Source: Methylosinus trichosporium OB3b
GTDB lineage: Bacteria; Pseudomonadota; Alphaproteobacteria; Rhizobiales; Beijerinckiaceae
Direction of reading: 5' to 3'
Assembly (NCBI RefSeq): GCF_002752655.1
Contig: NZ_CP023737.1
Span: forward strand, 3,620,001 to 3,684,000
DNA: 64,000 bases
A program made the translations under genes and the position numbers. A model generated the notes under the pieces. It searched no databases, had not been told where the DNA came from, and was given only the letters and a program-made list of their open reading frames with translations. Positions 1,617-64,000 of the stretch are shown here, piece by piece. Each line of letters begins with the position of its first letter. Position 1 is the stretch's first letter.

Positions 1617-1791
1617 GTCGGTCTTCCTTTCGGCTCACGCTTTCGCGCGGCGCATGATCGCCTTTGCTGCTTCATCCGATCATGTCTCGATGGTCTCGTC
1701 GCCTCGGTCGCCGGCAACGTATAGGCCGCCAGATGCGTCGGCTCTGTCGAATGTCTTGTAAGCTCTATCACTACGTCTGATCTCGCGAAGA

Positions 1792-2910: not shown

Positions 2911-3518
2911 TGTGGCGCGCAAAGGATCGACTGTCCCGAGGCGCAGACAGCGGCGGCAAGCCCCGCGACGCCGGCGCAGAGTCGCAAGCCGAGACGCGCG
3001 GCGCGCCAGGGTGTGACGAAGGATGCGGCGACGAGGCCATAGGATGCGGCCGCCGCCGCGGCGATCGATAGGCCCGCCGCGGCGGCCATGCGGTCGGCGA
3101 GAGTCGCGCTCGTGACGCCGATCGAGCCTGCGGTCGCGCCGCATAGGGCGGCCGTGAGCAGCAATCGGCGTAGGTCGATTTGCACGCCCGCGGCGCCGGC
3201 GGCGCCCACAGGCGCCAGCGCGACGAGCGCCGCCGCAGATGCAACGCGATTGTCGTCGCCGAGATCGCCGATGGCGAGCGCAGCGGCGAAGGCGGCGAAG
3301 GCAAAGCAGCTCACGACGGCCTGATCGGCGCGGCGCTGCTGCAATCCGGCCCAGATGGCGAGCGCGACCGCCAGGGCCGGTCGTTCGCAGCCGATGAAGA
3401 AATGCGCGACGCCGGACCAGAAGCCGCCGAGCGCCGCGAGCTCGCTATGCGCTTGCGCCGACGCCGGGAAGACGCCGGCGCCGGCGACGAGGAGCAGGAG
3501 CCGTACGCCTTTGCGCAA
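2907..3518 (-). CDS. HupE/UreJ-like polytopic membrane protein
   Basis: 203 aa, hydrophobic throughout. A signal-like N-terminus (MRKGVRLLLLVAGAGVFPASAQAH) is followed by HSELAALGGFWSGVAHFFIG, which has the His/Gly pattern of HupE/UreJ proteins, and by about five further membrane segments. The start is a TTG at 3518, five bases after the GMC stop codon. No better start gives an intact signal peptide. It overlaps the next HupE-like gene by four bases, so both are likely made from one mRNA. Metal transport is a family-level guess; the substrate is not shown by the sequence. Confidence 0.7.
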   Translation of the reverse strand: MRKGVRLLLLVAGAGVFPASAQAHSELAALGGFWSGVAHFFIGCERPALAVALAIWAGLQQRRADQAVVSCFAFAAFAAALAIGDLGDDNRVASAAALVALAPVGAAGAAGVQIDLRRLLLTAALCGATAGSIGVTSATLADRMAAAAGLSIAAAAAASYGLVAASFVTPWRAARLGLRLCAGVAGLAAAVCASGQSILCAPH

Positions 3519-3522
3519 GTCG

Positions 3523-5451: not shown

Positions 5452-5503
5452 GGTCGTTTCCCTTGTCCAACGCGCGGCCCGGGCCCCACAGGGGCGCGGG
5501 GCG

Positions 5504-5604
5504 AGAGCGTTATTCAATCCGGACGGATCGGATAACGCTCTGCATTCTTTCGCTCGAGCGAATTCTGATCGATGGAATAATTCCGTTCGATCGGAAAGCG
5601 CTCT
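5504..5604. repeat. Composite palindromic intergenic repeat (family A, full copy)
   Basis: Three hairpins in a row lie between the cytochrome gene and the GMC gene. Arms at 5504-5513 and 5532-5541 match; a perfect 14-bp palindrome sits at 5549-5562; imperfect arms lie at 5567-5577 and 5582-5593. A 21-base stretch (TCTTTCGCTCGAGCGAATTCT) is shared exactly with the copy at 31885-31974. Partial copies occur elsewhere in the window. It may act as an mRNA 3' stabiliser or terminator. Confidence 0.85.
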
Positions 5605-5610
5605 GAGGCG

Positions 5611-8202
5611 TCACATGGTTTTCAAGAAAGCGATCAGCGCCTTTTTGTCGGCGTCGCTCAGGCCCGGCTCCTCGGCGAAATAATCGGTGCCGAAATAATG
5701 TCCGCGATTGGCGATGAAATCGGGACATTTGTTGAGCTCGAGCAGATCGCCGTAGGAGCTCGCGAAGGCGCGGCGCGCGTCGTCGTCGCTGGCGTTCGGC
5801 GGCAGCGACTTCAGCGCGATCTTGAGCTTGGCGAGAAGCTTGAGCACTTTCGCCTTGTGCAGCAGATCCTCGAGCGGATTGTCGCGCTTGTCGAGATCGA
5901 GATTGCCGATCAGCGCCACCGGCGTGCCTTTCGGAATGGGGCCGATGGCGACGCCGTTCTCATCGAAGAAATTGCCGAGGCGCAGCGCGTCGACGAGCCA
6001 TTTCACATCCTCGCCGACATCGATGCCCGCTTGCAGCAGATTGGGCAGAAAACCCTTGGGCACGCGCAGATAGCTCGTCTCGGTGGTCACATCGACGGCG
6101 CCGCGCAATTTCTTGCCCGAGGCGGTCACATAGTCGATGTCGTGCTGGCCGTAGGTTTCATATTTGGTGATGCGCTTTTCCGGCCACAGCAGCTGCTCGA
6201 TGGAGCTGTCGAAGGATTTCAGCCGCGCGTCCACGGAGGGACTCTCCTGAAAAGCGCCGAGGCTGTTGTTGACGAGGAATGGCGCGGTCGACCACAGGCT
6301 GACGAGCGATGGAGGACGCGTGTAGCCGCGCCCGCCCGCGGGCATCGCATAGGAGCGCGGCGCGCCGGTGTAGGGATCATGCACGGTGATCGTTCCGACC
6401 GACGGCAGCTCCTTGTAGGAGCTCGAGGAGAAATCGTTCCAGATGTTGTTCTTGATCGCATTGGTGGCGAGCGGGCTGCAGGCGTTGGTCTCGAGCAGGC
6501 TCACGGGAACGCGAAGATCGGTCGACAGGAAGTTGTCGGTGAGAAAATCGCCGCTCTTGGCGATCGCCTTGGCCTCCTGCTTGAACGCATCGGTTTTCGT
6601 ATAAGCCCAATATTTGTTCCAGCAGGAGAGATAATCCTTGCCGACGCAGCCCTCCTTCGGGAAGAGTTCGAAGGTCTTTTCCGGCAGCTTGCTCGAATGG
6701 CAGCGCAGGCAGCGTTCGCCGAAAACTTCCTTGCCGCGATCGAGCGTCGCCGCATCCCAAGTGAGATGATTGGCGCCGGCGGGCGCGTTCTTCAGATAGT
6801 CCGGCTTTGCCGTCGCAAGGAAGAACAGCGCCGTATTGGGCGTCTGCGCCTCATTGGCCTGCCAATAGGTCGAGTTGGCGCGGCCAGTTGCGATCGGAAT
6901 GGCGCTGATCGGTTTGCCGCCGACGATCGCGTTGAAATGCTCGAGCCATTCCTCGCTGAACAGGCCGATATTGACATAGACGCGGTTGAACGAGCCGAGC
7001 GCGCCGGCGGAATCCGAGCCGTCCTTCAGGACATGGGGGGTGAACGCCTGATCGGGGGCCTTGAAGAATTGCGTCAGCGGCGATTGCGCTGGAACATATT
7101 CGGTGAATTGCTTGTTGAGCTGCTCGCCGCCGGTGAGCTTCTCGCGGCCGAGCTTCAGCCCGAGCGCGAGACGGGGGCCGAGCTGATAGATCGCGTTCAT
7201 CGTGCGCGGATTCATGATGTAGTCGGTCGACAGCAGCGAGGTGTCGAGCGCGCCCGGTCGCGACACATGAAAATATTGCCAGGCGAAATCCTTCGGATCG
7301 GCGGCATAGGTGAAGATGCGATCCCACCAGAAATATTGCGCGCCGGGATTGGAGTTGAGATTCTCCCATTTGGGATGCTCGGGATCGGCCGGCGGATTGG
7401 TCGGATTTGGGCCGACATGGCAGAAGCCGCAGGACATTCCGACGCGATAGGGACGAATGAGATCTTTGTCGTTGTAATAGGACGGGTCGGTGTAGAAGCG
7501 GACCGGGTCCCATTTTCTCTCGGCCTCGTCGTCGAAATCGGGATTGGGAAACAATCGCAATCCGACGATGCCGGTCGCATAGCCGTAATAGGAGCCGACC
7601 GGAAAGGCCTCGCTGCGGCCGCGCGCGCCGAATTTGACGCCCGGATATTTCGTCTCGTCTTCATAAGGGTCGGCAGGACAGCTCGGGTCGCGCGTGTCGA
7701 GCCAGAGTCCGAAGCGGTCGGCGCGCGGTCCGGTCGCCTTCTCGAAGCAGGGCTCGTTGACGAGACCCAGATAGGACCAGCGATTGTCGCGGCTGAATTT
7801 GGTGAGGCTCGGATGGCTCGACAAGGTCTTGAGGAAGTCGAGCTGACCGAATGACTTCTGATTCATGATGTTCCACAGACGGTCGTTGCCGGCCGTCCAG
7901 ACCACCCAATTGTTGCGCCCCACGACCGCCGCTTTGCGCGCGTCCTCGGGCGTTATTCCGGGAAGATAGGGGTCGAGCGCTTTCGCGAGCTCCTCGGGGC
8001 GCTTGGTGGCGCCGTAATCCATATTGACGAAATAATCGTCGTCGGCGCCGGGAAGCGACTCGGCCGTGCGTCCGACGCACATGGCTTCGTCCTTTATTTT
8101 TCCGGCGCCCGATCCGCAATCCTCGGCCGCTCTCGCGGCGCTCGCTCCCAAGGCGCCGATCATGGCGGCGCCGAGCAAGCTCCTCAGCAATTTCTCGAGC
8201 AT
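5611..8202 (-). CDS. Exported di-heme cytochrome c, RoxA/RoxB-like or MauG/peroxidase-related
   Basis: 863 aa from the ATG at 8202, with GGGAGGAA upstream. Residues 1-26 form a Sec signal peptide ending ASAARA. Two covalent heme c motifs are present: CGFCH (Cys258, Cys261, His262) and CLRCH (Cys498, Cys501, His502). The large soluble regions around them and the wide spacing of the hemes recall RoxA/RoxB rubber oxygenases and the cytochrome c peroxidase/MauG superfamily. This protein is longer than RoxA (about 680 aa), and oxygenase activity cannot be read from the sequence. It should be periplasmic. The flanking GMC oxidoreductase and DUF4331-like gene on the same strand suggest an electron-transfer or oxidative role in one pathway. 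Confidence 0.8.
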   Translation of the reverse strand: MLEKLLRSLLGAAMIGALGASAARAAEDCGSGAGKIKDEAMCVGRTAESLPGADDDYFVNMDYGATKRPEELAKALDPYLPGITPEDARKAAVVGRNNWVVWTAGNDRLWNIMNQKSFGQLDFLKTLSSHPSLTKFSRDNRWSYLGLVNEPCFEKATGPRADRFGLWLDTRDPSCPADPYEDETKYPGVKFGARGRSEAFPVGSYYGYATGIVGLRLFPNPDFDDEAERKWDPVRFYTDPSYYNDKDLIRPYRVGMSCGFCHVGPNPTNPPADPEHPKWENLNSNPGAQYFWWDRIFTYAADPKDFAWQYFHVSRPGALDTSLLSTDYIMNPRTMNAIYQLGPRLALGLKLGREKLTGGEQLNKQFTEYVPAQSPLTQFFKAPDQAFTPHVLKDGSDSAGALGSFNRVYVNIGLFSEEWLEHFNAIVGGKPISAIPIATGRANSTYWQANEAQTPNTALFFLATAKPDYLKNAPAGANHLTWDAATLDRGKEVFGERCLRCHSSKLPEKTFELFPKEGCVGKDYLSCWNKYWAYTKTDAFKQEAKAIAKSGDFLTDNFLSTDLRVPVSLLETNACSPLATNAIKNNIWNDFSSSSYKELPSVGTITVHDPYTGAPRSYAMPAGGRGYTRPPSLVSLWSTAPFLVNNSLGAFQESPSVDARLKSFDSSIEQLLWPEKRITKYETYGQHDIDYVTASGKKLRGAVDVTTETSYLRVPKGFLPNLLQAGIDVGEDVKWLVDALRLGNFFDENGVAIGPIPKGTPVALIGNLDLDKRDNPLEDLLHKAKVLKLLAKLKIALKSLPPNASDDDARRAFASSYGDLLELNKCPDFIANRGHYFGTDYFAEEPGLSDADKKALIAFLKTM

Positions 8203-8289
8203 CGGTTCCTCCCGATTGATGAATGCTCAGATTCGCGCGGATCCACCGCTCGGATCGCGCGCGGCAATCGATTGTTCGCGTCTCTCGCG

Positions 8290-9441
8290 TCAGGCTTTCA
8301 GCGCGGATCGCCGTCCGAACCAATGGATCAGGGCGCGGATGATGAAGAGTAGCAGGAGCGCGCCGATCGCGATCTGCACCAGAGGGCGCATGAAGAAACG
8401 GACGACGTAAGGTCCAGTGGCGCCGGCGGGCTGCGGCTTGGGAGGCCAGGCCTCGGCGAGATAGGGAAATTCCGTCGTCAACGGCTTGTCGTTCACGGTC
8501 GAGCGTGGCCATTGCATCGTGTCGATGAAGGCGTTTTCCTGCAGCGGACAATCACCCTGCGCGCAGGTCAGCCGCGCCACATCATCCTCGAGACGGCGGC
8601 CATTGGGAAAGCCCGGCGGACGCGTGCGCGTGAAGATCATCACATCCGGCACGGCGTCGTAATGGCGAATGAGAAAGCCGCTCAGCTGATTGAGATTGGC
8701 GAGCGGCGGCAGCCACTGGGCGAGAAAGGCTTGAACCTTGCCCCGCGGCTCGGCCTTCTCCTTGATCTCGGCGACATGCTGGCTCGGCGGAATTTTATTC
8801 AATATCTCGAAACGGCCGAGCTGCGTGCGATTGGAGCGGCCGACATGATCGATTTGCTCGCCACCGTCGACGCGATTGCTCGTCGCCCAGAGGACAAAGC
8901 TCTCCGCATGCTCGGGAAAAGAGGCTTGCGGAATGCTGAACGCCATGGTGATGACATTCACGCCGAAAAATTTGGGAAAAATGAAGGGATCGTCGCGCAC
9001 GCCGGAAAACACTCGGATGCTCTGCGCATCGCCCAATCCTTTGAAGGATGTCTCCTTCACCTTGGCGTCATTGTCGAGACGGATGCGGATGGTCGCGTCC
9101 GGCGCTATGCCTTCCGGCGCGTCGATGGTTCCGCCGTAGCGGGCGAGGTCCTCCGCCCTGTCGAAGCGCAGCTTCGTGTGAAAATCCATATGGATGTTAT
9201 ATTCGAAGGGCTCGAGATTATAGGGCGGCGGACCGACGAGCGAGCGACGCACGTCCAGGATCGCCACATACTGATCGCCTTCGGGAAAGAAGAAGAGGCC
9301 GGTGATATTGGCTTCCTGCTCGTCTTCCGCGAGCCACATCGGATCGGCATGATCGGAAGCCCGGCCGGCAGACGGGAGTAGAAGCGCGGTGATCAGCGCC
9401 AACGCATTGAGCAACGATCGAGCCGAAGGACGCGACGTCAT
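8290..9441 (-). CDS. DUF4331-like exported protein with C-terminal membrane anchor
   Basis: 383 aa from the ATG at 9441, with a GAGG site upstream. The N-terminus is a signal peptide (LLNALALITALLLPSAGRAS) followed directly by SDHADPM, the type of mature start seen in DUF4331 proteins. The core is rich in beta-strand-like segments, and one membrane helix near the C-terminus (VQIAIGALLLLFIIRALIHWF) should anchor it with the bulk outside the cytoplasm. Function unknown. In other bacteria DUF4331 genes often occur beside TPR and HupE/UreJ genes (from memory), and the same trio is present here. It lies 87 bases upstream of the cytochrome gene and probably shares its transcript. Confidence 0.7.
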   Translation of the reverse strand: MTSRPSARSLLNALALITALLLPSAGRASDHADPMWLAEDEQEANITGLFFFPEGDQYVAILDVRRSLVGPPPYNLEPFEYNIHMDFHTKLRFDRAEDLARYGGTIDAPEGIAPDATIRIRLDNDAKVKETSFKGLGDAQSIRVFSGVRDDPFIFPKFFGVNVITMAFSIPQASFPEHAESFVLWATSNRVDGGEQIDHVGRSNRTQLGRFEILNKIPPSQHVAEIKEKAEPRGKVQAFLAQWLPPLANLNQLSGFLIRHYDAVPDVMIFTRTRPPGFPNGRRLEDDVARLTCAQGDCPLQENAFIDTMQWPRSTVNDKPLTTEFPYLAEAWPPKPQPAGATGPYVVRFFMRPLVQIAIGALLLLFIIRALIHWFGRRSALKA

Positions 9442-53808: not shown

Positions 53809-54198
53809 TCAGTCACGCGGCAGGGAAAGGGGATGGGCCAGGAGCGCCCGATCGAGCGTGGCGAGTCGGAGATTCTCGATGCTGCATTGAGCGAGCAGCA
53901 TTCGATCGAACGGGTCGCGCGTCGCTGGATCGGGCTCGACGCCAACGACGGCGTGTCGACGGTCGATCGGCAGAATGGACAGCCCGATAGCTTCCATGTA
54001 ATCGGCGATGTCGTCCAGAGCCATGCCGGGGTCGAGCTTGCCGAGCCGGGTCTTGATCGCGACTTCCCATAGGCTCGCGACGCTCGCATGAGACTGCGTG
54101 CTCGGAGACGCCAGGCGCGCTGAGAGACGTGGATCGCGCAGATGCAGCGTGTCGCGCATCAGATGGAGCAGGACGTGGGTGTCGAGGAGGAGCCTCAT
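53809..54198 (-). CDS. PIN-domain toxin of a type II toxin-antitoxin pair
   Basis: 129 aa. MRLLLDTHVLLHLMRD carries the first PIN Asp (D6), WEVAIKTRLGKL a conserved Glu, and DPFDRMLLAQC the Asp pair. PIN toxins cut RNA, often tRNA. It lies 18 bases after the antitoxin gene at 54217-54480. The GEVAIK/DPFDR pattern is the usual one for PIN partners of Phd-type antitoxins. Confidence 0.9.
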   Translation of the reverse strand: MRLLLDTHVLLHLMRDTLHLRDPRLSARLASPSTQSHASVASLWEVAIKTRLGKLDPGMALDDIADYMEAIGLSILPIDRRHAVVGVEPDPATRDPFDRMLLAQCSIENLRLATLDRALLAHPLSLPRD

Positions 54199-54216
54199 CC
54201 GAGACCGAGCCTCATG

Positions 54217-54480
54217 TCACGAGAGCGGCCGCAGCAAAATATCTTCCGGAAGCGGCTCGTCGAAATCATCGGCGATGAACGGCGCTGGCGCGGCTATGCC
54301 TCGAGCCTTCAGCAGGCTCCGTCCGGCGTCGAGGTTCAGCCCGTGCGTCTCGCGGTGAGGGACGAGATCGACAACGGGCCGGCCGTCGCGCGTAACGACG
54401 ACCTTTTCTCCCGCTTCCTCCACCCGTCGGGTGAGCTCGGCGAGCCGCTCCTGCGCGTCCTGGATCGTAACGGTCGTCAT
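54217..54480 (-). CDS. Phd/YefM-family antitoxin
   Basis: 87 aa. TVTIQDAQERLAELTRRVEE and VVVTRDGRPVVDLVP are the DNA-binding fold of Phd/YefM antitoxins; the acidic C-terminal tail (FIADDFDEPLPEDILL) should bind the toxin. It is upstream of the PIN gene, the usual order, and is expected to repress its own promoter. Confidence 0.9.
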   Translation of the reverse strand: MTTVTIQDAQERLAELTRRVEEAGEKVVVTRDGRPVVDLVPHRETHGLNLDAGRSLLKARGIAAPAPFIADDFDEPLPEDILLRPLS

Positions 54481-54659
54481 GATTCCAATCTTAGGGCCAA
54501 GAGTCGAAGACGCAAGCTCGTTTCCGTCGACGTGTCACAAAAACGCCGGACTATTCGGCCCTTCTTAACCAGCTCGCCGTAAATCGAAGGTCGCGCGTCG
54601 CGTCGCCAAGCGCGGACGTCGACTCGTCTCCGCGGCCGTATCGGGAATTGGAGCTTCTG

Positions 54660-55991
54660 GTGCGTAGATTTTCATCCTCCGCCTTCGCGCCCCTTCGCGC
54701 CTCGATCCTCGCCGCATCGCTCGTCTCGCCCGCCGCGCTCGCCGCCGGGGACGGCTATGGCGGTCAGGCCGAATGGGCGCAGCGCTATGACGCCGACCCG
54801 CGGCTCACCGTGTCGCGCTCGACGACGCCGATCTTGTCGACGCAGACCGTCGCCGCGACCGAGGCGGCGATACAGCAGATGCAGGACATCGTCGCGCGCG
54901 GCGGCTGGCCCATGGTGCCGGCCGGCCAGCAGCTGAAGCTCGGCTCGAACAGCCCGGCCGTCTCCATCCTGCGTCGCCGTCTCATGATCTCCGGCGACAT
55001 TGGCCAGGACGCCGGCGCGAGTCCCATCTTCGATTCTTACGTCGAGGCCGCCGTGCGCCGCTTCCAGGCCCGGCACGGCGTCAACGCCACCGGCGTCGTC
55101 GCGCAGCAGACTTTCGTCGCCATGAATGTGCCGGCGGAGGCGCGCATGCGCCAGCTCGAGACCAATCTCATCCGGCTGCGCAGCTTCTCGCGCGATCTCG
55201 GCAATCGCTATGTGACGGCCAATATTCCCGCCGCCTCGGTGGAGACGGTGGAGAACGGCTATGTCGTCACCCATCACATCGCCGGCGTCGGCAAGATCGA
55301 CCGCCAGTCGCCGGTGATGCAGACCAAGGCGATTCAGATCAACTTCAACCCGTTCTGGACCGTGCCCGCCTCGGTGATCCGCAAGGATCTCATCCCCAAG
55401 ATGCAGGCCGATCCCAACTATCTCACCGCCAATCACATTCGCGTCTACAACAAGGACGGGATGGAGCTCGCGCCCGAGCAGATCAACTGGAACTCGCTCG
55501 ATGCGATGAATTATAAGTTCCGCCAGGATATCGGCGGCGATTTCAACTCGCTCGGCGTCGTGCGCATCGACATCGCCAATCCGTACGGCGTCTATATGCA
55601 CGACACGCCGGCCAAGGGCATTTTCGGCGACGACTTCCGTTTCGTCTCCTCCGGCTGCATCCGCCTGCAGAATGTGCGCGATTATGTCGCCTGGCTCTTG
55701 AAGGAGACGCCCGGCTGGGACCGCGACCACATCGACGAGGTGATCCGCTCGGGCGAGCGCGTCGATGTGCGGATCACGCCGGCGGTGCCGGTCTATTGGG
55801 TCTATGTCACCGCCTGGGCGGCGCCCGACGGGCTGATCCAGTTCCGCGACGATATTTATCAGCGCGACGGCCTCGGCCTCGCCTCGGCCGTCTCCGCGCC
55901 GCAGCCGACGGCCGCCGCGACTCCGATCCCGCAACGCCAGACGGCGCGCTCCGCGCAGCCCTATCCGGTGTTCGGCGAAGAGGAGAATTGA
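54660..55991 (+). CDS. L,D-transpeptidase with peptidoglycan-binding domain (YcbB-like)
   Basis: 443 aa from the GTG at 54660, with GGAG six bases upstream. A signal peptide (ILAASLVSPAALAAG) is followed by a peptidoglycan_binding_1 domain (SNSPAVSILRRRLMISGDIG, then VEAAVRRFQARHGVNATGVV) and the YkuD catalytic domain with HDTPAKGIFG and the nucleophile SSGCIRLQN (Cys near residue 333). It forms 3-3 cross-links in peptidoglycan or attaches outer-membrane proteins. The C-terminus is Ala/Pro/Gln-rich and not conserved. Confidence 0.92.
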   Translation: MRRFSSSAFAPLRASILAASLVSPAALAAGDGYGGQAEWAQRYDADPRLTVSRSTTPILSTQTVAATEAAIQQMQDIVARGGWPMVPAGQQLKLGSNSPAVSILRRRLMISGDIGQDAGASPIFDSYVEAAVRRFQARHGVNATGVVAQQTFVAMNVPAEARMRQLETNLIRLRSFSRDLGNRYVTANIPAASVETVENGYVVTHHIAGVGKIDRQSPVMQTKAIQINFNPFWTVPASVIRKDLIPKMQADPNYLTANHIRVYNKDGMELAPEQINWNSLDAMNYKFRQDIGGDFNSLGVVRIDIANPYGVYMHDTPAKGIFGDDFRFVSSGCIRLQNVRDYVAWLLKETPGWDRDHIDEVIRSGERVDVRITPAVPVYWVYVTAWAAPDGLIQFRDDIYQRDGLGLASAVSAPQPTAAATPIPQRQTARSAQPYPVFGEEEN

Positions 55992-56205: not shown

Positions 56206-56631
56206 TCACCGCCCCGCGCGTTGCGCTCCGCCGCGCTGGGCGCGCCAGGTGCCGCCGCATTTGTCAGTCGAGGACGACCACGCGCCCGAGCCCGAATTGC
56301 CGCGCAGCTGGCCATGTGCGCGCGCCACATGACCGTCCTGCGAGGTGAAGCGCGTCATGATCGCGCCGTCGCTCTCCACATAGCCCCAATGCGCCATGCG
56401 TCCAGCGGCGAACGCCGCCGCCGCGGCCTGCGTGCCGACCAGAAGGTCGCCGCGAATCTCGATCGAGCCGGGCAGCAGCCCGGGGCAGGAGCCCACCGTC
56501 ACGCGCGCCTCGAACACCCAGGCGCCGTCATAACGGCCGGCCTCGGGCGTTCCCGCGCTCTCACGCGGAGCGGCCTGCACGCTGCTCGCGAGCATCACAG
56601 AACCCAGAACAGAAAGAACGATTCCCCGCAT
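56206..56631 (-). CDS. Small exported protein of unknown function
   Basis: 141 aa from the ATG at 56631, which overlaps the mutA stop (TGATG). Signal peptide MRGIVLSVLGSVMLASSVQA. The mature part has YDGAWVFEARVTVGSCPGLL and SGSGAWSSSTDKCGGTWRAQ, a beta-rich pattern with two Cys likely to form a disulfide, repeated in many small secreted Rhizobiales proteins of unknown role. Its coupling to a cytoplasmic mutase gene is odd. Confidence 0.78.
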   Translation of the reverse strand: MRGIVLSVLGSVMLASSVQAAPRESAGTPEAGRYDGAWVFEARVTVGSCPGLLPGSIEIRGDLLVGTQAAAAAFAAGRMAHWGYVESDGAIMTRFTSQDGHVARAHGQLRGNSGSGAWSSSTDKCGGTWRAQRGGAQRAGR

Positions 56632-58487
56632 CAGCCGGCCTCCTCGAACGCACGCTGCAGCGTCGCGAACATATCGCCGCCAGCGTAAATAAAGTCTGCG
56701 ACTCCCGCCGATCGCAGCGCTTTTTCCAGCTCGCCGGGCCGCCCGGCGAGATAGACGCGCGCCCCTGCCGCGGCGAGCGCGCGGGCCGCTTCCTCCGCCC
56801 GCTCCGCATAGATCGCATCGGAGGAGCAGATGCAGGCGAGCTTCGCGCCGCTGGCGCGCCAACCCGCTGCAAGATCCCCGCCGTCCTCGCCGAACACCGC
56901 CTCCATGCCGCCGGCCTCGAAGAAGTTCTTGGCGAAATGCGCCCGCGCCGTATAGGCGGCGACCGAGCCGAGATTGGCCAGAAACACGCGCGGACGCGCG
57001 CCGGTCGCGGCCAGCGCGGCGTCGGAGCGGTCGCGCAGCGCCTCGAAAGGCTCGGCGAGACGGCGCGGCGGCAGCGGCGACGAGCGGAGCGCGCCCGCCG
57101 GCGCCTCGGCCTCGGAACGCGAGGCGTCGAACGGCGCCAGCGCCGCCACCGGCGCCTCGCCGATATCGGGGAACTCGTTGGAGCCGGTGATCTTGTCGCG
57201 CGCGCGCGCGACGTTCTGCGCCCTTTTGTCCGCCGTTTCGGCGACGCGGGCCTGCAGCGCGCCTTTTTCCAACGACGCGGCCAGCCCGCCCTCGGCCTCG
57301 ATCTTCTGGAACTCGCTCCAGCCGCGCTCGGCGAGCGCCTCGGTCAGCGCCTCCATGCCGCCGGCGCCGGCGGCCGGATCGTCGACCACATGCACATGCG
57401 ATTCGTCCTGCAGCACCAGCTGCGTGTCGCGCGCGAGGCGCCGGGCGAAGGCGTCCGGCGTTCCGAGCGCCTGGGTGAAGGGCAGCACGGTCACGGCGTC
57501 CGCCCCGCCGATCGCCGCGCCGAAAGTGGCGAGCGTCGCGCGAAGCAGATTGGTCCAGGGATCGCGCCGCGTCGCCATGCGCCAGGCGGTTTCCGCGTGA
57601 ACGTAAATGGGCTCCGGCGCGAGGCCGCAGGCCGATTCGACGCGCGCGAACAGGCGGCGCAGAGCGCGGAATTTGGCGATGGTGACGAATTGGTCGGCGT
57701 CGGCGGAAAGGCGGAAGGCCAGAAGCGCGCGCGCCGTCTCCAGCGGCAGCCCATTGGCCTCGAGCGCGCGCAGATAGGCGAGGGCTGCGGAAAGCGCGAA
57801 GCCGAGCTCCTGCGCCTCCGAGCCGCCGGCGGCGTGGATCACACGGGCGTCGGCGAAAGCCGCGCCGAAGCGGAAGCCGGCCTCCGCGACGCTTTTGACC
57901 TCGGCGGCGAAGACGGCCGAATGCTCGGTCCAGGGGGCCGGCAGGAAGCCGTGCAGCGCCTGCGCGCCGAGCGGATCGAAGCCGAAGGCGACGCGCGTGA
58001 TCGAGGGCTCGATATGGGCGCGGTCGAGCAGGCGCCGAATGGCGCTCACGGCGTTCGGCGCGCGCGGCGAGAATTCGATCAGCGCCGGAACGCCATATTC
58101 GAAGTGGAAGCTCTGGAAGAGCTGCGCGATGCTCTCGTCGCCGTCGTCGGCGACGCCGCTTCCATAGGCGCCCTGCGCGCCGGCGAGCACGATGTGCAAT
58201 CCGTCGGCGCCGCCTTCGAGGTCGTCGAGCGCCAGACGATTGGCCGTCGCGGGATCGCCATGATCGACGCGGGCGAGAACGGACCAGCGGCCGGGCGCGG
58301 CGCGCAGCGCCCGCGGGCCCGGAGCGGTCGCGCGCGCATAGAGCGGTGCGATCTCGACGCCGTCATAAGTCTTGGAAATCAGCTTCTCGAACGGCGCTCC
58401 CTTGAGCGCGCGATCGACGATTTTGCGCCAGTCCTCCTCTTTTCCCTGTGGAAAGACGCCGGCCAGCGGCGCGTCGTGCAAAGTCAT
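56631..58487 (-). CDS. mutA: Methylmalonyl-CoA mutase small (beta) subunit
   Basis: 618 aa, normal for the non-catalytic small subunit. It starts MTLHDAPLAGVFPQGKEEDW, and KLISKTYDGVEIAPLYARAT is the mutase N-terminal motif. The C-terminal half resembles the B12-binding fold but without the DxHxxG cobalamin ligand: RPRVFLANLGSVAAYTARAH stands in its place, as expected for this subunit. It pairs with MutB to interconvert methylmalonyl-CoA and succinyl-CoA. No mutB is nearby. It is divergent from the lipid operon at 58679. Confidence 0.9.
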   Translation of the reverse strand: MTLHDAPLAGVFPQGKEEDWRKIVDRALKGAPFEKLISKTYDGVEIAPLYARATAPGPRALRAAPGRWSVLARVDHGDPATANRLALDDLEGGADGLHIVLAGAQGAYGSGVADDGDESIAQLFQSFHFEYGVPALIEFSPRAPNAVSAIRRLLDRAHIEPSITRVAFGFDPLGAQALHGFLPAPWTEHSAVFAAEVKSVAEAGFRFGAAFADARVIHAAGGSEAQELGFALSAALAYLRALEANGLPLETARALLAFRLSADADQFVTIAKFRALRRLFARVESACGLAPEPIYVHAETAWRMATRRDPWTNLLRATLATFGAAIGGADAVTVLPFTQALGTPDAFARRLARDTQLVLQDESHVHVVDDPAAGAGGMEALTEALAERGWSEFQKIEAEGGLAASLEKGALQARVAETADKRAQNVARARDKITGSNEFPDIGEAPVAALAPFDASRSEAEAPAGALRSSPLPPRRLAEPFEALRDRSDAALAATGARPRVFLANLGSVAAYTARAHFAKNFFEAGGMEAVFGEDGGDLAAGWRASGAKLACICSSDAIYAERAEEAARALAAAGARVYLAGRPGELEKALRSAGVADFIYAGGDMFATLQRAFEEAG

Positions 58488-58678
58488 GAGCGAGCCTCGA
58501 AGGATAGTCGGTTCGAGCCGTCTTCTGGCATGAAGCGGGCCCTGCCGCGAGTCCTATCCGCGCCGCTTCGCCCGGGCCGGGCTTTATTTTCCCGGCCGGG
58601 CGCGTTAACGAGGGTTAAAGCGCCGTCTCCGCGTTCGGAGGCGGCCGACGCGCCTGAACGACCTGAACGGAGGTGGAC

Positions 58679-58954
58679 GTGGCAGATGATCCGCAGGAGA
58701 AGGCCAAGCTCGTCGAGGAGATTATCGAGGTCATCGCGGCCGAGGGAATGGTGGACCGCACCAAGGTGACGCCGGACGCGACGATCGAGAGCCTCGATCT
58801 CAAATCGGTGGACATCGTCATGATTCTCACCGCCCTCGAGGAAAAGTTCAACGTCTACATCCCGATGGATGGTTCGCTGCAGGACGCCAAGACGGTCGAG
58901 GCGCTGATCGGCGCCATCGCCGAATATGTGATGAAAGAGCGAGAGAAGCAGTAA
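58679..58954 (+). CDS. Acyl carrier protein, specialised
   Basis: 91 aa from the GTG at 58679, five bases after GGAGG. ATIESLDLKSVDIVMILTAL contains the serine (LKS) for the phosphopantetheine arm; the usual DSL motif is changed to DLKS. The divergence from AcpP suggests a dedicated carrier rather than the housekeeping one. Its stop abuts the ketoacyl synthase start. It carries the chain built by the following enzymes. Confidence 0.85.
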   Translation: MADDPQEKAKLVEEIIEVIAAEGMVDRTKVTPDATIESLDLKSVDIVMILTALEEKFNVYIPMDGSLQDAKTVEALIGAIAEYVMKEREKQ

Positions 58955-60208
58955 ATGGCCGCTTCCGGGGGCGCCGGCGGGCGTCGCGTGGTGATCTCCG
59001 GCATGGGGGCGGTCTCGGCGGCCGGCGTCGGCGCAGGAGCCTTGTGGGCGGCGGCGCGGGACGGCGTGTCGCAAATCCGTCCGCTGGTGACGCCGCATCC
59101 CTATGACGGGCGGGTGAAGCAGGCTGCGCAAGTGCCCGATTTCGATCCGGCCGCGCATATCGACGCGAAATTCCTGCCCTTCTGCGATCCGTTCACGCAA
59201 TTCGCCCTGGTCTCGGCCGACGAGGCGGTCGCGCAGGCGGGGCTCGGCCGCGACGATCTCGCCGGCCCGCGCACGGCCGTCATCATCGGCTCCGGCATCG
59301 GCGGCATGACGACGATCGACAACGGCCTCTATCGTTATTACACGCAGTCGATCCGGCCGGACATGCTGAGCGTGCCGCGCCTCATTCCGAGCGCCGCGCC
59401 GACGACGCTCGGCATGCGCTATTCCTGCAATGGGCCCACCTTCTCGATGGGCAGCGCCTGCTCCTCGGCGAGCCAGGCGGTCGGGCTCGGCGCGCAGATG
59501 ATCCGCTTCGGCATCGTCGACCGCGCCATCGTCGGCGGCGCCGAGGCCTGCGTCATCAACGGCACCATCCGCGCCTGGGAAGGGCTGCGCGTGTTGACGC
59601 CCGATCTCTGCCGGCCGTTCTCGAAGGGGCGCAACGGCATGCATCTCGGCGAGGGCGCCGCGGTGTTCCTGCTGGAGACGTTGGAGGCGGCCGAGCGGCG
59701 CGGCCATGCGCCGCTCTGCGAGCTCGCGGGCTATGGCACCACCAGCGACGCCAAGGATTTCGTGCGTCCCGATCTCGACGGCGTCGCCAATTCGATCGTC
59801 GCGGCGCTCGACGACGCCGGCCTCGCGCCGGACGATATCGACTATGTGAACGCCCATGGCACGGCGACCCACGCCAATGACATCACCGAGGCGGGGGCGA
59901 TCGCCCGCGTCTTCGGCGAGCGCGCGGCGCGGCTGCCGGTCTCCTCGACCAAGCCCATTCACGGACATGCGCTCGGCGCGGGCAGCGGGCTCGAGCTCGT
60001 CGTGACCATCGCGGCGCTCGAGGAGCAGATCGCGCCGCCGACGATCAATTTCCTCGAATATGATCCGCGCTGCCCGATAGACGCCGTGCCCAATGAGGCG
60101 CGGCGAACGCCGATGCGTCACGCCATGACCAATTCCTTCGCGTTCGGCGGCATCAATGTGGTGCTGATCCTGCGCGCGCTCGACGGCGGAGGCGCCCGTG
60201 CTCACTGA
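58955..60208 (+). CDS. Beta-ketoacyl-ACP synthase (FabF-like)
   Basis: 417 aa, starting at the ATG at 58955 directly after the ACP stop. It is a KAS I/II condensing enzyme with the full Cys-His-His triad: GSACSSASQAVGLG (near residue 167), NAHGTATHANDITE and SSTKPIHGHALGAGSGLELV. It elongates acyl-ACP, presumably on the upstream carrier. The N-terminus is a normal thiolase fold (RRVVISGMGAVSAAGVG). It overlaps the next gene by 11 bases. Confidence 0.93.
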   Translation: MAASGGAGGRRVVISGMGAVSAAGVGAGALWAAARDGVSQIRPLVTPHPYDGRVKQAAQVPDFDPAAHIDAKFLPFCDPFTQFALVSADEAVAQAGLGRDDLAGPRTAVIIGSGIGGMTTIDNGLYRYYTQSIRPDMLSVPRLIPSAAPTTLGMRYSCNGPTFSMGSACSSASQAVGLGAQMIRFGIVDRAIVGGAEACVINGTIRAWEGLRVLTPDLCRPFSKGRNGMHLGEGAAVFLLETLEAAERRGHAPLCELAGYGTTSDAKDFVRPDLDGVANSIVAALDDAGLAPDDIDYVNAHGTATHANDITEAGAIARVFGERAARLPVSSTKPIHGHALGAGSGLELVVTIAALEEQIAPPTINFLEYDPRCPIDAVPNEARRTPMRHAMTNSFAFGGINVVLILRALDGGGARAH

Positions 60209-60614
60209 GCCCGCCGGCGGGGAACTCCGCCTCGGCCCCTTTCGCGTCGTCGCCGACGAGGAGCGGGTCGCGCGCTACCGGCGCGAGACCGGCTTCGCGG
60301 AGACTCTCGAGAAGATCGTGCCGGCGGCTTTTCCGGCGGTGTGGATGATGACGCCGGGAATTTCCGCGGCGATCCGCGCCGCGCTCGACGGCGAGAACGC
60401 GCTGCCCGTCCACGAGTCGCAGAATTTTCGCTATTTCGCGCCGCTGCGCGTCGGCGAGAGCTATGATCTCACCGTCTCCCTGCGCCGCGAGGCGAGCCCG
60501 CCGCGGCTCGCTGTGAACGCCTCGGTCACGACGCCCGGGGGCGAGGCGCGGCTCCATGTCGAGACGCTGCTGCGCATCGTGCCGCGTCCGCTGGGGCTGG
60601 AGGGCGCGCCGTGA
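60198..60614 (+). CDS. Hot-dog-fold protein (dehydratase/thioesterase-like)
   Basis: 138 aa from the GTG at 60198. QNFRYFAPLRVGESYDLTVS and the following strands (ASVTTPGGEARLHVETLLRI) fit a hot-dog domain. The N-terminal half lacks the His/Asp pair of active MaoC enzymes, so it may be a non-catalytic partner of the next protein. Start and stop overlap both neighbours, showing tight coupling. Confidence 0.7.
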   Translation: MLTEPAGGELRLGPFRVVADEERVARYRRETGFAETLEKIVPAAFPAVWMMTPGISAAIRAALDGENALPVHESQNFRYFAPLRVGESYDLTVSLRREASPPRLAVNASVTTPGGEARLHVETLLRIVPRPLGLEGAP

Positions 60615-61033
60615 GCGGCCTGCGCCTGCCCGCCATCGGCGAGCGCCTGCCCGACTGGCGCATCGGCCCGTTCGACGCCGCCGCGCTCGCCGCCTATGCG
60701 GAGGTTTCCGGCGACGATAATCCGATCCATCTCGACGAGGGGCTGGCGCTGGCGATCGGCTTTCGCGCGCCGCCGGTTCATGGCATGAAGCTGCTGGCGG
60801 CCTTCGAGCCTATGCTGCTCGCATGGCGGCGCGATCTTTTTCTCGCCCGATTGTCCGGTAAGTTCGTGCAGCCGGTGACGCGCGGCGAGGCGGTGACGCT
60901 CACCGGCCGCGTGCTGAGGGCGTCCGAGCAGGAGGGGGTCTTCTTGCGGCTTCTGGCCACCGGCGAGACACGCGCGCCGGCGATCGTCGGCGAGGCGCTG
61001 ATGATCGCGCCGCAGCGCGTGGGCGGACGATGA
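60611..61033 (+). CDS. MaoC-like 3-hydroxyacyl dehydratase
   Basis: 140 aa from the GTG at 60611 (GTGA overlap with the previous stop). AYAEVSGDDNPIHLDEGLAL has the catalytic Asp and His of the hydratase-2 motif, and APPVHGMKLLAAFEP follows. It probably dehydrates 3-hydroxyacyl-ACP, alone or as a pair with the preceding hot-dog protein. It overlaps the reductase gene by four bases. Confidence 0.85.
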   Translation: MSGLRLPAIGERLPDWRIGPFDAAALAAYAEVSGDDNPIHLDEGLALAIGFRAPPVHGMKLLAAFEPMLLAWRRDLFLARLSGKFVQPVTRGEAVTLTGRVLRASEQEGVFLRLLATGETRAPAIVGEALMIAPQRVGGR

Positions 61034-61821
61034 AGACGCGGCGCATCCTCATCACCGGCGCGTCGAGCGGCATCGGCCGCGCGCTGGCGCAGGCCTATGC
61101 GCGGGAGGGGCGCAGCCTCGCGCTCTATGGGCGCGACGCGGAAAGGCTCGAGGAGACGGCCGTGGCCTGCCGCGCCGCCGGCGCCGAGGTCGACACGACC
61201 ATCGCCGATGTGCGCGACCGCCGCGGCATGGCCGCGCGCATCGCCGAATCGGACGCGCGCGCGCCGCTCGATCTCGTCATCGCCAACGCCGGCGTCTCCA
61301 CCGGCCTCGCCTCGGGCCAGATCGCCGAGGACCCCGAGGCGGTGCGCGGCCTGTTGGCGATCAACGTCCATGGCGTGTTCAACACGGTGGAGCCGGCCAT
61401 AGCGGCGATGACGGCGCGGCGGCGGGGCCAGATCGCCGTCGTCGGCTCCATGGCCGGCCTGCGCGGCCTTCCGTATTCTCCGGCCTATTGCGCCAGCAAG
61501 GCGGCGGTGCATCTTTATGCCGATTCGCTTCGCGGCGCGCTCGCGCCGCATGGCGTCGGCGTCAGTCTCATTGTTCCGGGTTTCGTGACGACGCCGATGA
61601 CCGCCAAGCTCGACGCCTGGCAGCCGGGCCGCGTCAGCGACGCGAAGGCCGCGGAGATCATCATCCGTGGACTGGAGCGCCGCGCGGCGGTGATCGCCTT
61701 TCCGCTGTTTATTTATTATGCGATGAAACTATTTGCGTGGCTGCCGCCCGGCGTGGTCGATTCGGTGATGCGCCGATTCGACGTGACCGTGCCGCAAACC
61801 CTCGAGCGGGAGGAGCCGTGA
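61030..61821 (+). CDS. Short-chain dehydrogenase/reductase
   Basis: 263 aa from the ATG at 61030. TGASSGIGRALAQAYAREGR (residues 9-28) is the cofactor site, NAGV the structural motif, Ser in VVGSMAGLRG, and YCASKAAVHLY the catalytic Tyr-x-x-x-Lys. The C-terminus has a hydrophobic segment (FPLFIYYAMKLFAWLPPGVV), so it may sit at the membrane. In this context it may reduce 3-ketoacyl-ACP, though a sugar or lipid ketone is also possible. Confidence 0.88.
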   Translation: MKTRRILITGASSGIGRALAQAYAREGRSLALYGRDAERLEETAVACRAAGAEVDTTIADVRDRRGMAARIAESDARAPLDLVIANAGVSTGLASGQIAEDPEAVRGLLAINVHGVFNTVEPAIAAMTARRRGQIAVVGSMAGLRGLPYSPAYCASKAAVHLYADSLRGALAPHGVGVSLIVPGFVTTPMTAKLDAWQPGRVSDAKAAEIIIRGLERRAAVIAFPLFIYYAMKLFAWLPPGVVDSVMRRFDVTVPQTLEREEP

Positions 61822-63002
61822 TCGACCAATTCGCATTGCCGCTCGTCATATTCTGCGCGGTCTTCTGGGCGAGTTCCGTCGGTCTGCTGATTCTTTCCGT
61901 CTTCGCGGCCATCATCCATCCGAGGGTGGTCGTGCGGCGGGGAACGCGGAAGGACCAGCCGCCCGTCTCCATCGTCCTGCCGGTGAAGACGCTCGACCGC
62001 GGTTTCGCCCGGGCGCAGGAATCGGCGCTCGCACAGCTCTATCCGCAATTCGAGGCGATCGCCTCGGCGGCGGAGGCCGCGTCCCCGGCGGTCTCGACCA
62101 TGCGCGAGATTTTCGCGCGCCATCCGCAGATCGAGACGCGCATTCTGCATTCGACGGCGCGCTTCGCGGCGAGCCCCAAGGTCGATAATCTGTTCCGGCC
62201 GTTCAACGACGCCGCGAACGATGTGATCTTGATGAAGGATTCCAACATCGTCCTCGAGCCGGACGATCTCGCCGAGACGATGCGCCATTTGAAAGACGGG
62301 ATCGGCATGGTCTGTGGGATTCCCTATGCCTCCGCGCCGACCAATTTCGCCGCCCATGTCGAGGCGGCGATCATGAACGGCCCGCATCAGCGTATGCTGT
62401 TCGCGGCCTCGGCGGCCGGCCATGGCTTCGGCGTCGGCAAGATCATGCTGTTCCGCCGCAGCGATTTCCTGCGCGCCGGCGGCTTCGCGGCGATCGCCCA
62501 TACGGTCGGCGAGGACAACGCCACCGCCAAGGCGCTGAGCCGGATCGGCCTCAAGACCGTGTTCTCGCACCGGCTGGTGCGGCAGGAGCTGGGTCTGCGT
62601 ACTTTCCGCGATCTCTATGAGCGCCAGCTGCGATGGAGCGTCGTGCGCCGCGACGACGAAATATTGTCCTTCCTCGCGGAGCCGTTCTGTCAGGCGCTGC
62701 CGTCCTTCGCCGCCTCGCTCGTCGTCGCGCCGCTCGCCGGCCTCTCTCCCCTGTGCGGCCTCTCCGTGACCTTCGGTCTGTGGCTCACGCTCGAGATGCT
62801 GCTCTCCATCGTCAAGGGCTGGCCGCTATCCTGGTATGCGCCGGCTGTATTTCTCACTCGCGAGGCGACGATGCTCGCGGTGTGGCTGCACGCCTGGACC
62901 GCCACGCGGGTGGTGTGGGCGCAGGCGACGATCGACACGCGCGCCGCGGCCGGCGACACGGTCGCGCCGGCCCCGCTTCCCGTCGCGAAAGAAGAAGGAT
63001 AG
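61818..63002 (+). CDS. Ceramide-glucosyltransferase-like (GT21-type) membrane glycosyltransferase
   Basis: 394 aa from the GTG at 61818, overlapping the reductase stop (GTGA) behind GGGAGGAG. It has an N-terminal membrane helix, then a GT-A fold with VSIVLPVKTLDRGF, LMKDSNIVLEPDDLA (DxN metal site), HTVGEDNATAKALSRIG and QLRWSVVRRDD (RxxRW-type), and two or three C-terminal helices. This matches GT21 enzymes and the hopanoid-linked HpnI group, which add a sugar to a lipid. The acceptor here is probably the product of the operon's acyl genes. Confidence 0.82.
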   Translation: MIDQFALPLVIFCAVFWASSVGLLILSVFAAIIHPRVVVRRGTRKDQPPVSIVLPVKTLDRGFARAQESALAQLYPQFEAIASAAEAASPAVSTMREIFARHPQIETRILHSTARFAASPKVDNLFRPFNDAANDVILMKDSNIVLEPDDLAETMRHLKDGIGMVCGIPYASAPTNFAAHVEAAIMNGPHQRMLFAASAAGHGFGVGKIMLFRRSDFLRAGGFAAIAHTVGEDNATAKALSRIGLKTVFSHRLVRQELGLRTFRDLYERQLRWSVVRRDDEILSFLAEPFCQALPSFAASLVVAPLAGLSPLCGLSVTFGLWLTLEMLLSIVKGWPLSWYAPAVFLTREATMLAVWLHAWTATRVVWAQATIDTRAAAGDTVAPAPLPVAKEEG

Positions 63003-63007
63003 AGCGC

Positions 63008-64000
63008 TTGATCATCGCACTTCTGCAGTTGCTCGCCGATGGCGTCTGCCTCGCGGCGGCGCTCATTCTGATCCTGATCGGCGCGGGCTTCATCGCGATC
63101 ATCGCCCGCTTTCTCTTCGATCAGTTGCGCGGCGTGAAGGATCCTGTGGCCGCCGCGCTTCCCGAGGACGAGCTGCCGCATGTGCTGCTGCAGATCCCGG
63201 TGTTCAACGAGCCGGCGGTGACCGAGCAGGCGCTGCGCTGCGTCGCTCTGCTCGATTGGCCGCGCGATCGGCTGCACATTCAGCTGCTCGACGATTCGAC
63301 CGACGAGACGCCGGAGCGCGCCGAGGCGGCAGCGCGCGAATTGCGCGCGCAGGGCGCCGATATTCTGCATGTGCGCCGCGAGGATCGCTCCGGCTTCAAG
63401 GCCGGCGCCTGCGCGGCCGGCCTCGCTCTCTATGACGCGCCCTATGTCGCCATGCTCGACGCCGATTTCCGGCCGCCGGCGGACTGGCTGAAGCGCACCG
63501 TGCCGCTGCTGGTGAAGGACGACCGCGCCGGCTTCGTCCAGTCGCGCTGCGAATTCTCCAATTTCCGCAAGAATTGGCTGACGCGCGCGCAAGGCCTGGT
63601 GCAGGACGGCCACTTCCTGATCGAGCAACGCACGCGCGCGCGCGCCGGCTGGCTGTTTCAGTTCAACGGCACCGGCGGAATCTGGCGCCGCGAGACGATC
63701 GAGAAATCGGGCGGCTGGTCCGATTACTCGCTCTGCGAGGATCTCGACCTCACCGTGCGCGCCGCGCTCGGCGGCTGGCATGGCATTTTCGTCACCGAAC
63801 CGCCGATCCCGGGGCAGGTGCCGGAAGAGCTGCGCGACTTCCGCCGCCAGCAGCGGCGCTGGTCCAACGGCTTCGTGCAGGTGGCGAAGAAGACCGTGCT
63901 GCCGCTCTGGCGCGCGCCCTGGACGCTGACGCAGCGCGTCGCGGCGATCGTGCTGATCGTGCATCAGATTTTCTTCCCGACGGCGGCGCTCGGCCTCATC
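63008..64000 (+). CDS. Cellulose-synthase-like family 2 glycosyltransferase (C-terminus outside window)
   Basis: 331 codons visible, open at the right edge. The start is taken as the TTG at 63008, 5 bases after the previous stop, with AAGGA upstream. A membrane helix (ALILILIGAGFIAIIARFLF) is followed by HVLLQIPVFNEPAVTEQALR, LLDDSTDET, VAMLDADFRPPADWLKR (DxD), SLCEDLDLTVRAALGG and RRQQRRWSNG (Q-x-x-RW). These are the processive GT2 motifs of CESA/hyaluronan-type synthases, also found in mono-glycosyl lipid synthases. It continues the operon beyond the window. Confidence 0.88.
   Translation, partial: MIIALLQLLADGVCLAAALILILIGAGFIAIIARFLFDQLRGVKDPVAAALPEDELPHVLLQIPVFNEPAVTEQALRCVALLDWPRDRLHIQLLDDSTDETPERAEAAARELRAQGADILHVRREDRSGFKAGACAAGLALYDAPYVAMLDADFRPPADWLKRTVPLLVKDDRAGFVQSRCEFSNFRKNWLTRAQGLVQDGHFLIEQRTRARAGWLFQFNGTGGIWRRETIEKSGGWSDYSLCEDLDLTVRAALGGWHGIFVTEPPIPGQVPEELRDFRRQQRRWSNGFVQVAKKTVLPLWRAPWTLTQRVAAIVLIVHQIFFPTAALGLI

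Follow-up and report, generated by a model that had tools for sequence, protein, structure and literature searches.

In the rhodobacterial ceramide pathway, an aasR-cerR-acpR-spt gene run is accompanied by cerS, as in Caulobacter crescentus (CC_1162-1165 and CC_1154) and Escherichia coli BL21(DE3) (ECD_02850-02854). According to the available part of PMC9386255, rhodobacterial serine palmitoyltransferases (SPTs) prefer acyl-AcpR loaded by AasR, and a proteobacterial SPT always co-occurs with an acyl carrier protein (ACP) and an acyl-CoA synthetase-like gene. Here we describe a seven-gene operon of Methylosinus trichosporium OB3b that joins a dedicated ACP line to two membrane glycosyltransferases. 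It lies in a window of 64,000 nucleotides (G000:C1:3620001-3684000) from a genome of 5.18 Mb in four contigs. Judging from sequence comparison, we put the chance at roughly three in four that this operon encodes half of a pathway to glycosphingolipids (glycosylceramides), whose remaining genes would reside 1.22 Mb away in the same genome.

The window genome and the rhodobacterial pathway have in common a CerS homologue, an alpha-oxoamine synthase, a dedicated ACP and a reductase. A further likeness is that loci of this type in Phreatobacter carry genes that we take to be LptF/LptG-like. In contrast to the rhodobacterial arrangement, the window genome lacks a strong stand-alone AasR and a strong CerR, its ACP belongs to another group, and a ketosynthase (KAS) and a HadAB-like dehydratase are present in addition. 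The KAS, the GT21 glycosyltransferase and the desaturase discussed below fall outside the five ceramide genes described in the available part of PMC9386255.

Other known systems resemble parts of this arrangement. The two hot-dog proteins of the operon (HD1 and HD2) recall the mycobacterial type II fatty acid synthase, FAS-II (KasA/B, HadAB/HadBC and AcpM), in that HD2 matches HadB and the HD1 model matches chains of HadAB and HadBC. However, the operon proteins miss the NCBIfam cut-offs for KasA/KasB (202 of 560 bits), AcpM (25.8 of 146 bits) and HadB (30.5 of 203 bits), and because of this last shortfall we call the pair HadAB-like rather than HadAB. Eukaryotic glucosylceramide synthesis proceeds through SPT, KDSR, CerS, DES1 and UGCG. 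On paper, the window genome offers a counterpart for each step, namely an SPT-like enzyme, a short-chain dehydrogenase/reductase (SDR), an N-acyltransferase, a PF08557 desaturase homologue and a GT21 enzyme. The bacterial CerS nevertheless has a GNAT fold, which eukaryotic CerS is not known to have, and the chain would be made on a dedicated type II line. Another comparison is offered by SgaAB of Pseudomonas fluorescens MYb115, a pair of polyketide synthase (PKS) and alpha-oxoamine synthase that likewise ties a dedicated acyl-building enzyme to sphingolipid synthesis. As described in the available part of PMC12134224, SgaAB is a two-gene cluster with a type I PKS and no glycosyltransferases, whereas the window operon encodes a discrete ACP, KAS and dehydratase line.

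The operon and its conservation

The seven genes span 58679-64309 on the + strand in the order ACP-KAS-HD1-HD2-SDR-GT21-GT2, with the final 309 bases of GT2 extending beyond the window:

58679..58954, +, specialised ACP, 91 aa, GTG start (alternative in-frame GTG at 58673); PF00550, 28.1 bits (cut-off 20.8)
58955..60208, +, KAS II-like ketosynthase, 417 aa; ketoacyl-synt N and C domains
60198..60614, +, HD1 hot-dog protein, HadA/HadC-like, probably a non-catalytic dehydratase subunit; FAS1_DH_region, 18.1 bits (cut-off 22, not reached)
60611..61033, +, HD2 MaoC-type hot-dog protein, HadB-like, predicted catalytic dehydratase subunit; MaoC, 45.8 bits (cut-off 27)
61030..61821, +, SDR reductase, 263 aa, hydrophobic C-terminal stretch; adh_short, 153.5 bits
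61818..63002, +, GT21 membrane glycosyltransferase, ceramide-glucosyltransferase-like, 394 aa; Glyco_transf_21 (PF13506), 155.4 bits (cut-off 21.7)
63008..64309 (window end 64000), +, CESA-like GT2 membrane glycosyltransferase, 433 aa, TTG start most likely; GT2 Pfam models (L009:4509-5810)

A first-pass annotation of this DNA had named the same seven functions, and all of them are found here, with the GT2 gene running past the window. Its reading of the junctions was largely accurate: the TAA of the ACP gene abuts the ATG of the KAS gene, and 4-base overlaps join HD1 to HD2 (GTGA), HD2 to SDR (ATGA) and SDR to GT21 (GTGA). The KAS and HD1 genes, however, overlap by 11 bases (GTGCTCACTGA) rather than by GTGA, and a gap of 5 bases separates GT21 from GT2. 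The ACP indeed carries a changed motif, K-S-V in place of D-S-L, and its attachment serine is kept in all 11 module ACPs that were aligned. The concern that this ACP might be a housekeeping paralogue was not borne out, in that a tree groups it and 16 other module ACPs apart from both the AcpP of the same genome and three AcpRs. The separation from AcpR has SH-aLRT values of 86 and 96, for a short protein with long branches and with two of the AcpRs fragmentary.

When 397 genomes from the order were searched with HD1 (E <= 1e-4), 25 gave a match, the source genome included, and ACP and KAS genes adjoin HD1 in 23 of the 24 other loci. By excluding G389, whose match has no ACP or KAS beside it, and retaining G114, which is also weak, we arrived at 24 module genomes. 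This search under-detects, as G067 is scored as lacking the module yet contains CerS-ACP-KAS-HD2; the counts below keep the original scoring. We also scanned named genomes with an ACP alignment and kept 80 of 108 relatives. The 80 loci come from Methylosinus, Methylocystis, Beijerinckia, Methylocapsa, Methylocella, Methylovirgula, Rhodoblastus, Labrys and Phreatobacter, together with less closely named relatives, the nearest being Methylosinus sp. Sm6 (98% identity for ACP and 93% for KAS). By its relatives, the operon belongs to Methylosinus/Methylocystis. Within about 10 kb of the ACP gene, or less where a contig ends, KAS is present in 80 of these loci, HD1 in 75, HD2 in 73, SDR in 57, GT2 in 53 and GT21 in 38. 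The exact seven-gene order recurs in 34 loci, and three Labrys loci have it inside a longer run. Moreover, in every one of 101 loci (our own, 20 further and the 80 named, some being one place fetched twice), the KAS gene comes no more than 150 bases after the ACP gene. The gene order proposed earlier is thus conserved in other genomes, and the core neighbours do not vary freely, although the SDR and glycosyltransferase part does vary. Our home-made gene caller gave no genes for L042, L244 and L247 and few for L078, L136 and L153; for these six loci we relied on tblastn, supplemented for L042 by a plain list of open reading frames.

Two variations on the theme were encountered. In the f49 genomes G086 and G049 (L039 and L044), the HD2-like match coincides in position with a long open frame (about 800 aa), and HD2 may for this reason be fused or overlapped there. 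Several module loci (L037:11737-13282, L116, L118, L122, L139 and L149) also have, upstream of the ACP gene and divergent from it, genes for an ABC-2 permease and an ATPase like those of Wzm/Wzt or polysaccharide-export systems, a pair that could possibly export the operon product.

The encoded proteins carry motifs that we take to be catalytic, including Cys-His-His in KAS, D-x-N-P-x-H (GDDNPIH) in HD2, a serine and YxxxK in SDR, and aspartates, ED and QxxRW in GT21 and GT2. KAS scores 370 bits with the fabF model, under its cut-off of 493.75. The top PDB match of HD2 is the R-hydratase 1iq6, followed by HadB (5zy8_B and 4rlj_B). For HD1, an AlphaFold2 model (pLDDT 87.8) has as its ten best Foldseek matches chains of HadBC and HadAB dehydratases (E 1.6e-6 to 6.0e-6, TM about 0.6-0.67). 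Because HD2 is a MaoC protein with the D/H motif and a HadB match, and because the HD1 model leads to Had chains, the pair resembles a heterodimeric (3R)-hydroxyacyl-ACP dehydratase of the HadAB type, with one protein for each subunit; the dimer itself is a prediction. Among solved structures (E <= 0.01), the sole relative of GT21 is ceramide glucosyltransferase (E 1.4e-30), which suggests a ceramide-glucosyltransferase-like protein with predicted glucose transfer to ceramide. A role like that of the hopanoid enzyme HpnI, which shares the GT21 family, was considered and rejected, at about 150 bits against the TIGR03472 cut-off of 310. GT2 has cellulose synthases as its best PDB matches and misses the CelA cut-off (109 of 699 bits).

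Linkage to sphingolipid genes

Gene calling on 20 wide loci plus our own, with none called in L042, brought out two recurrent families beyond the operon genes: an alpha-oxoamine synthase (14 of the 21) and a protein some 380 aa long (16 of the 21). The latter, which we call CerS, is 37.5% identical (251 bits) to YghO of E. coli BL21, and its AlphaFold2 model (pLDDT 79.7) has a tandem-GNAT fold. YghO is required for dihydroceramide synthesis, as stated in the available part of PMC9386255. The window genome encodes CerS at C1:2457952-2459094 (E 1.4e-140), in a row that comprises an SPT-like oxoamine synthase and CerS (C1:2456563-2459094), a desaturase and a PF04116 fatty-acid hydroxylase. This desaturase (L076:12134-13129, C1 about 2.459 Mb) matches PF08557 Lipid_DES (33.6 bits, cut-off 23) as well as PF00487, and is a bacterial homologue of the sphingolipid delta4-desaturase in a methanotroph, with the activity predicted.

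In a Methylocystis locus (L129), the seven operon genes and the SPT-like, CerS, desaturase and hydroxylase genes are found together, and a locus of G255 (L037) contains the same 11 genes plus a second SDR. Among the 80 named loci, CerS is encoded within about 10 kb in 20, the SPT-like enzyme in 17 and the desaturase in 14. Partial arrangements also occur. In G049, CerS, ACP, KAS and HD1 lie together with an HD2-like match, and a different contig has SPT, SDR and GT21 close to each other. In G089, SDR is located by CerS or SPT along with GT21, GT2 and the hydroxylase.

The association extends to whole genomes. In 25 hand-picked genomes, CerS is present in all 12 that have the module (half of the 24) and in none of the 13 that do not (G389 and 12 other family members). 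A draw from the order contained CerS in 74 of 332 genomes, including every one of the 24 module genomes. In a draw of 385 genomes from the class, 51 have CerS, and a clear HD1 was seen in the source genome only. CerS is thus wider than the module, because both draws show it in many genomes without HD1, and clear modules sit inside CerS genomes.

The sphingolipid context also bears on the SDR. Relatives of this protein (32-50% identity) adjoin SPT or CerS in G205, G727, G422 and G089, with no module ACP or KAS seen nearby; the G089 contig is just 6.5 kb long, and the G727 stretch has a small HD2-like match and a weak acyl-AMP-ligase-like match. Because of these four genomes, we prefer to see the SDR as a reductase of ketosphinganine or ketoceramide; a role as ketoreductase in the elongation cycle is possible but less likely. 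Furthermore, no enoyl reductase was assigned by Pfam among the seven operon genes (the SDR has adh_short as its best model), so that the separate elongation cycle proposed in the first-pass annotation is incomplete. Nor does the neighbourhood bear out its comparison with NodFE-type modules. What survives is the dedicated ACP, KAS and dehydratase line beside two membrane glycosyltransferases, with a glycolipid as the probable product, now placed in a sphingolipid context by genes outside the window.

Probable destination of the dedicated chain

The operon is real and conserved, and it most likely accounts for the dedicated chain, the reduction and the glycosylation in a variant glycosphingolipid pathway that lacks the known acyl loader; both the product and the sequence of reactions are predicted. 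In our scheme, the dedicated ACP would carry a chain that KAS elongates and the HD1/HD2 dehydratase processes, with an enoyl reductase, and possibly a ketoreductase, borrowed from housekeeping fatty acid synthesis. The oxoamine synthase, assigned from its neighbours, would join serine to an acyl thioester, and the SDR would then reduce the 3-keto group in place of CerR. Next, CerS would move the chain from the dedicated ACP to the amine (alternatively, the chain would feed the oxoamine synthase). The desaturase and hydroxylase would modify the resulting ceramide, after which GT21 would add the first sugar and GT2 a further one.

In the best reading of the data, the chain built on the dedicated ACP is the N-acyl chain of ceramide, the sphingoid base being less likely. 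CerS is encoded directly upstream of ACP (less than 150 bases, same strand) in 11 of the 101 loci and SPT in none; after removal of three repeats, the 11 loci represent eight genomes (families f49 and f50, and G067). In G037, a PlsC-like acyltransferase gene lies upstream of the same cassette. Because of these arrangements we favour, on indirect grounds, an acyltransferase as the user of the chain, here CerS. A fuller proposal is tentative. Methylocystaceae, Beijerinckiaceae, Labrys and Phreatobacter relatives might make glycosylated, often delta4-unsaturated ceramides by means of a third mode of acyl supply, a private type II line (ACP, KAS and HadAB-like dehydratase) that passes an unusual, perhaps very long chain as acyl-ACP to the GNAT-fold CerS, with later steps like those of eukaryotic glucosylceramide synthesis. 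If the private line hands acyl-ACP straight to CerS in this manner, AasR and CerR would not be needed. A strong stand-alone AasR was not found in the window genome, where the three full-length matches (272-308 bits) belong to open frames 1786, 937 and 4419 aa long and the other two score at most 48 bits. Neither was a strong CerR, the best match having 57.9 bits (33% identity) against 175.7 bits in the canonical cluster of G037; a distant CerR is conceivable. The region around the SPT-like gene has no PP-binding match that would correspond to an acpR before spt.

The same pathway might instead use the ACP line to feed the SPT-like enzyme with the precursor of the sphingoid base, replacing AasR and AcpR, and leave CerS to take acyl-CoA or another ACP. 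We consider this arrangement doubtful. It accords with the preference of other proteobacterial SPTs for a dedicated acyl-ACP noted in the available part of PMC9386255, with the finding that a strong canonical CerR occurs only in G037 among 13 genomes, and with the distribution of AasR. With E. coli BL21 AasR as query and matches above 400 bits counted (open frames of 577-811 aa), AasR is present in 3 of the 24 module genomes (G037, G050 and G114) versus 43 of 58 CerS genomes without the module (Fisher p 3e-7). The 58 comprise 29 of the 50 module-less CerS genomes of the order draw and 29 of the 50 CerS genomes other than our own in the class draw; the two AasR searches used different cut-offs (1e-10 and 1e-75), and of the 15 genomes with neither module nor AasR, four (G257, G274, G276 and G328) have only distant CerS relatives (143-181 bits). 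In a CerS tree of 80 rows, however, 19 of the 21 module rows fall into a single clade of 24 (SH-aLRT 99), whose remaining five rows were scored as module-less. All five lack AasR, and the only AasR genome in the clade is G050. One of the five is G067, with its CerS-ACP-KAS-HD2; in the other four (G205, G727, G422 and G089), an SDR lies beside CerS or SPT, and the cassette was not found near CerS. Because this clade contains nearly all of the pattern, the AasR correlation reduces to about one clade, and an independent-pairs test yields three pairs and has no power. We therefore do not treat replacement of AasR as a phylogenetically supported correlation. The module ACPs also form a group apart from AcpR, such that the ACP tree gives no support to a canonical AcpR role, and the ACP gene adjoins CerS rather than SPT in the loci described above.

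A locus in the CerS clade of the window genome deserves separate mention. In G205 (L245, G205:C7:126500-145500), the end of a reducing type I PKS (positions 1-6528; DH, methyltransferase, ER, KR and ACP) stops 3 bases before an SPT-like open frame, which is followed by LptF/LptG-like genes, CerS and an SDR. By analogy with Pseudomonas SgaAB, this may be a PKS-fed sphingolipid locus.

Several observations weigh against a sphingolipid product for the operon. The operon and the SPT-like, CerS, desaturase and hydroxylase genes are far apart in the window genome, and 60 of the 80 named loci likewise show no CerS within about 10 kb (some of these ended by a contig edge). The Rhodoblastus loci have only ACP-KAS-HD1-HD2, with no SDR or glycosyltransferase genes nearby. 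Among PDB entries, the oxoamine synthase is as close to KBL (217.6 bits) as to SPT (216 bits), and it falls under all NCBIfam SPT cut-offs (308/500, 276/640 and 217/670; bioF, 348/426). The fold match of HD1 to Had chains is only slightly ahead of those to R-hydratase and a thioesterase-like protein (about 1e-5), and G590 has a weak HD1 match (29 bits) and is absent from the CerS list of the class draw. Both G037 and G114 have a divergent cassette plus AasR. In G037, the cassette (L042, G037:C8:60000-78500, 1152-9311) lies beside genes for a desaturase, an FGGY kinase, a CDP-alcohol phosphatidyltransferase and the PlsC-like acyltransferase, with no sphingolipid genes there, and the canonical AasR-CerR-AcpR-SPT cluster and CerS lie elsewhere. 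This locus led us to reject the idea that the four-gene cassette serves sphingolipids exclusively; the G037 cassette perhaps makes another lipid with a dedicated chain. Finally, the open-access literature searched, as far as its available parts go, gave no pointer to sphingolipids or ceramide in Methylosinus, Methylocystis or alphaproteobacterial methanotrophs, an outcome also expected if none are made; a search there for 'bacterial sphingolipid' together with 'ketoacyl' returned nothing.

Some of these points, notably the G037 neighbourhood and the distance between the operon and CerS, would suit a non-sphingoid glycolipid or acylated glycan in which GT21 and GT2 build on the ACP-made long chain with no ceramide involved. 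HpnI, by name a GT21 enzyme of hopanoid synthesis, could be cited in the same sense. We nonetheless judge such a product unlikely, since in several lineages the operon is physically linked to genes for the SPT-like enzyme, CerS and the delta4-desaturase homologue, and since all 24 module genomes have CerS. That housekeeping FabF/FabZ-type paralogues and unrelated glycosyltransferases were joined by chance or local shuffling is hardly credible. KAS and SDR do come from large families, but the kept gene order and the separate ACP group rule out the housekeeping paralogue explanation, and the co-occurrence with CerS likewise speaks against a chance grouping.

If sphingolipids are made, alphaproteobacterial methanotrophs would possess an extra class of membrane lipid. 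The stacked membranes of methanotrophs house methane oxidation, and their lipids serve as environmental biomarkers. Sphingolipids are best known from animals and plants, and where many other bacteria use a loading enzyme, this operon would build a fatty chain itself. If the oxoamine synthase is a true SPT, these genomes, with a private elongation line and without a strong AasR, would be an exception to the co-occurrence of SPT, ACP and an acyl-CoA synthetase-like gene given in the available part of PMC9386255. Two questions are thereby sharpened: whether an ACP can serve as the acyl donor of a bacterial ceramide synthase, and what reductase acts in the place of CerR.

Neighbouring genes and other observations

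Upstream of the operon, and divergent from it, lies a gene resembling that for the small subunit of methylmalonyl-CoA mutase (56631-58487; Pfam 298.8 bits; NCBIfam 388.8 bits, under its cut-off of 617). A Methyltransf_24 protein is encoded about 300 bases downstream of the operon, and past the window, a 595-aa open frame (L009:7117-8904) has no Pfam or NCBIfam match at E <= 0.01. Farther upstream, the window encodes a PIN-domain protein and a Phd/YefM-type antitoxin (53809-54480), likely a toxin-antitoxin pair, and an L,D-transpeptidase (YkuD) with a peptidoglycan-binding domain (54648-55991). Elsewhere in the genome, contigs C2 (285 kb) and C4 (180 kb) hold 34 of its 51 PP-binding matches, many inside very large open frames, and by the look of it these contigs are rich in genes of the nonribosomal peptide synthetase and PKS types.

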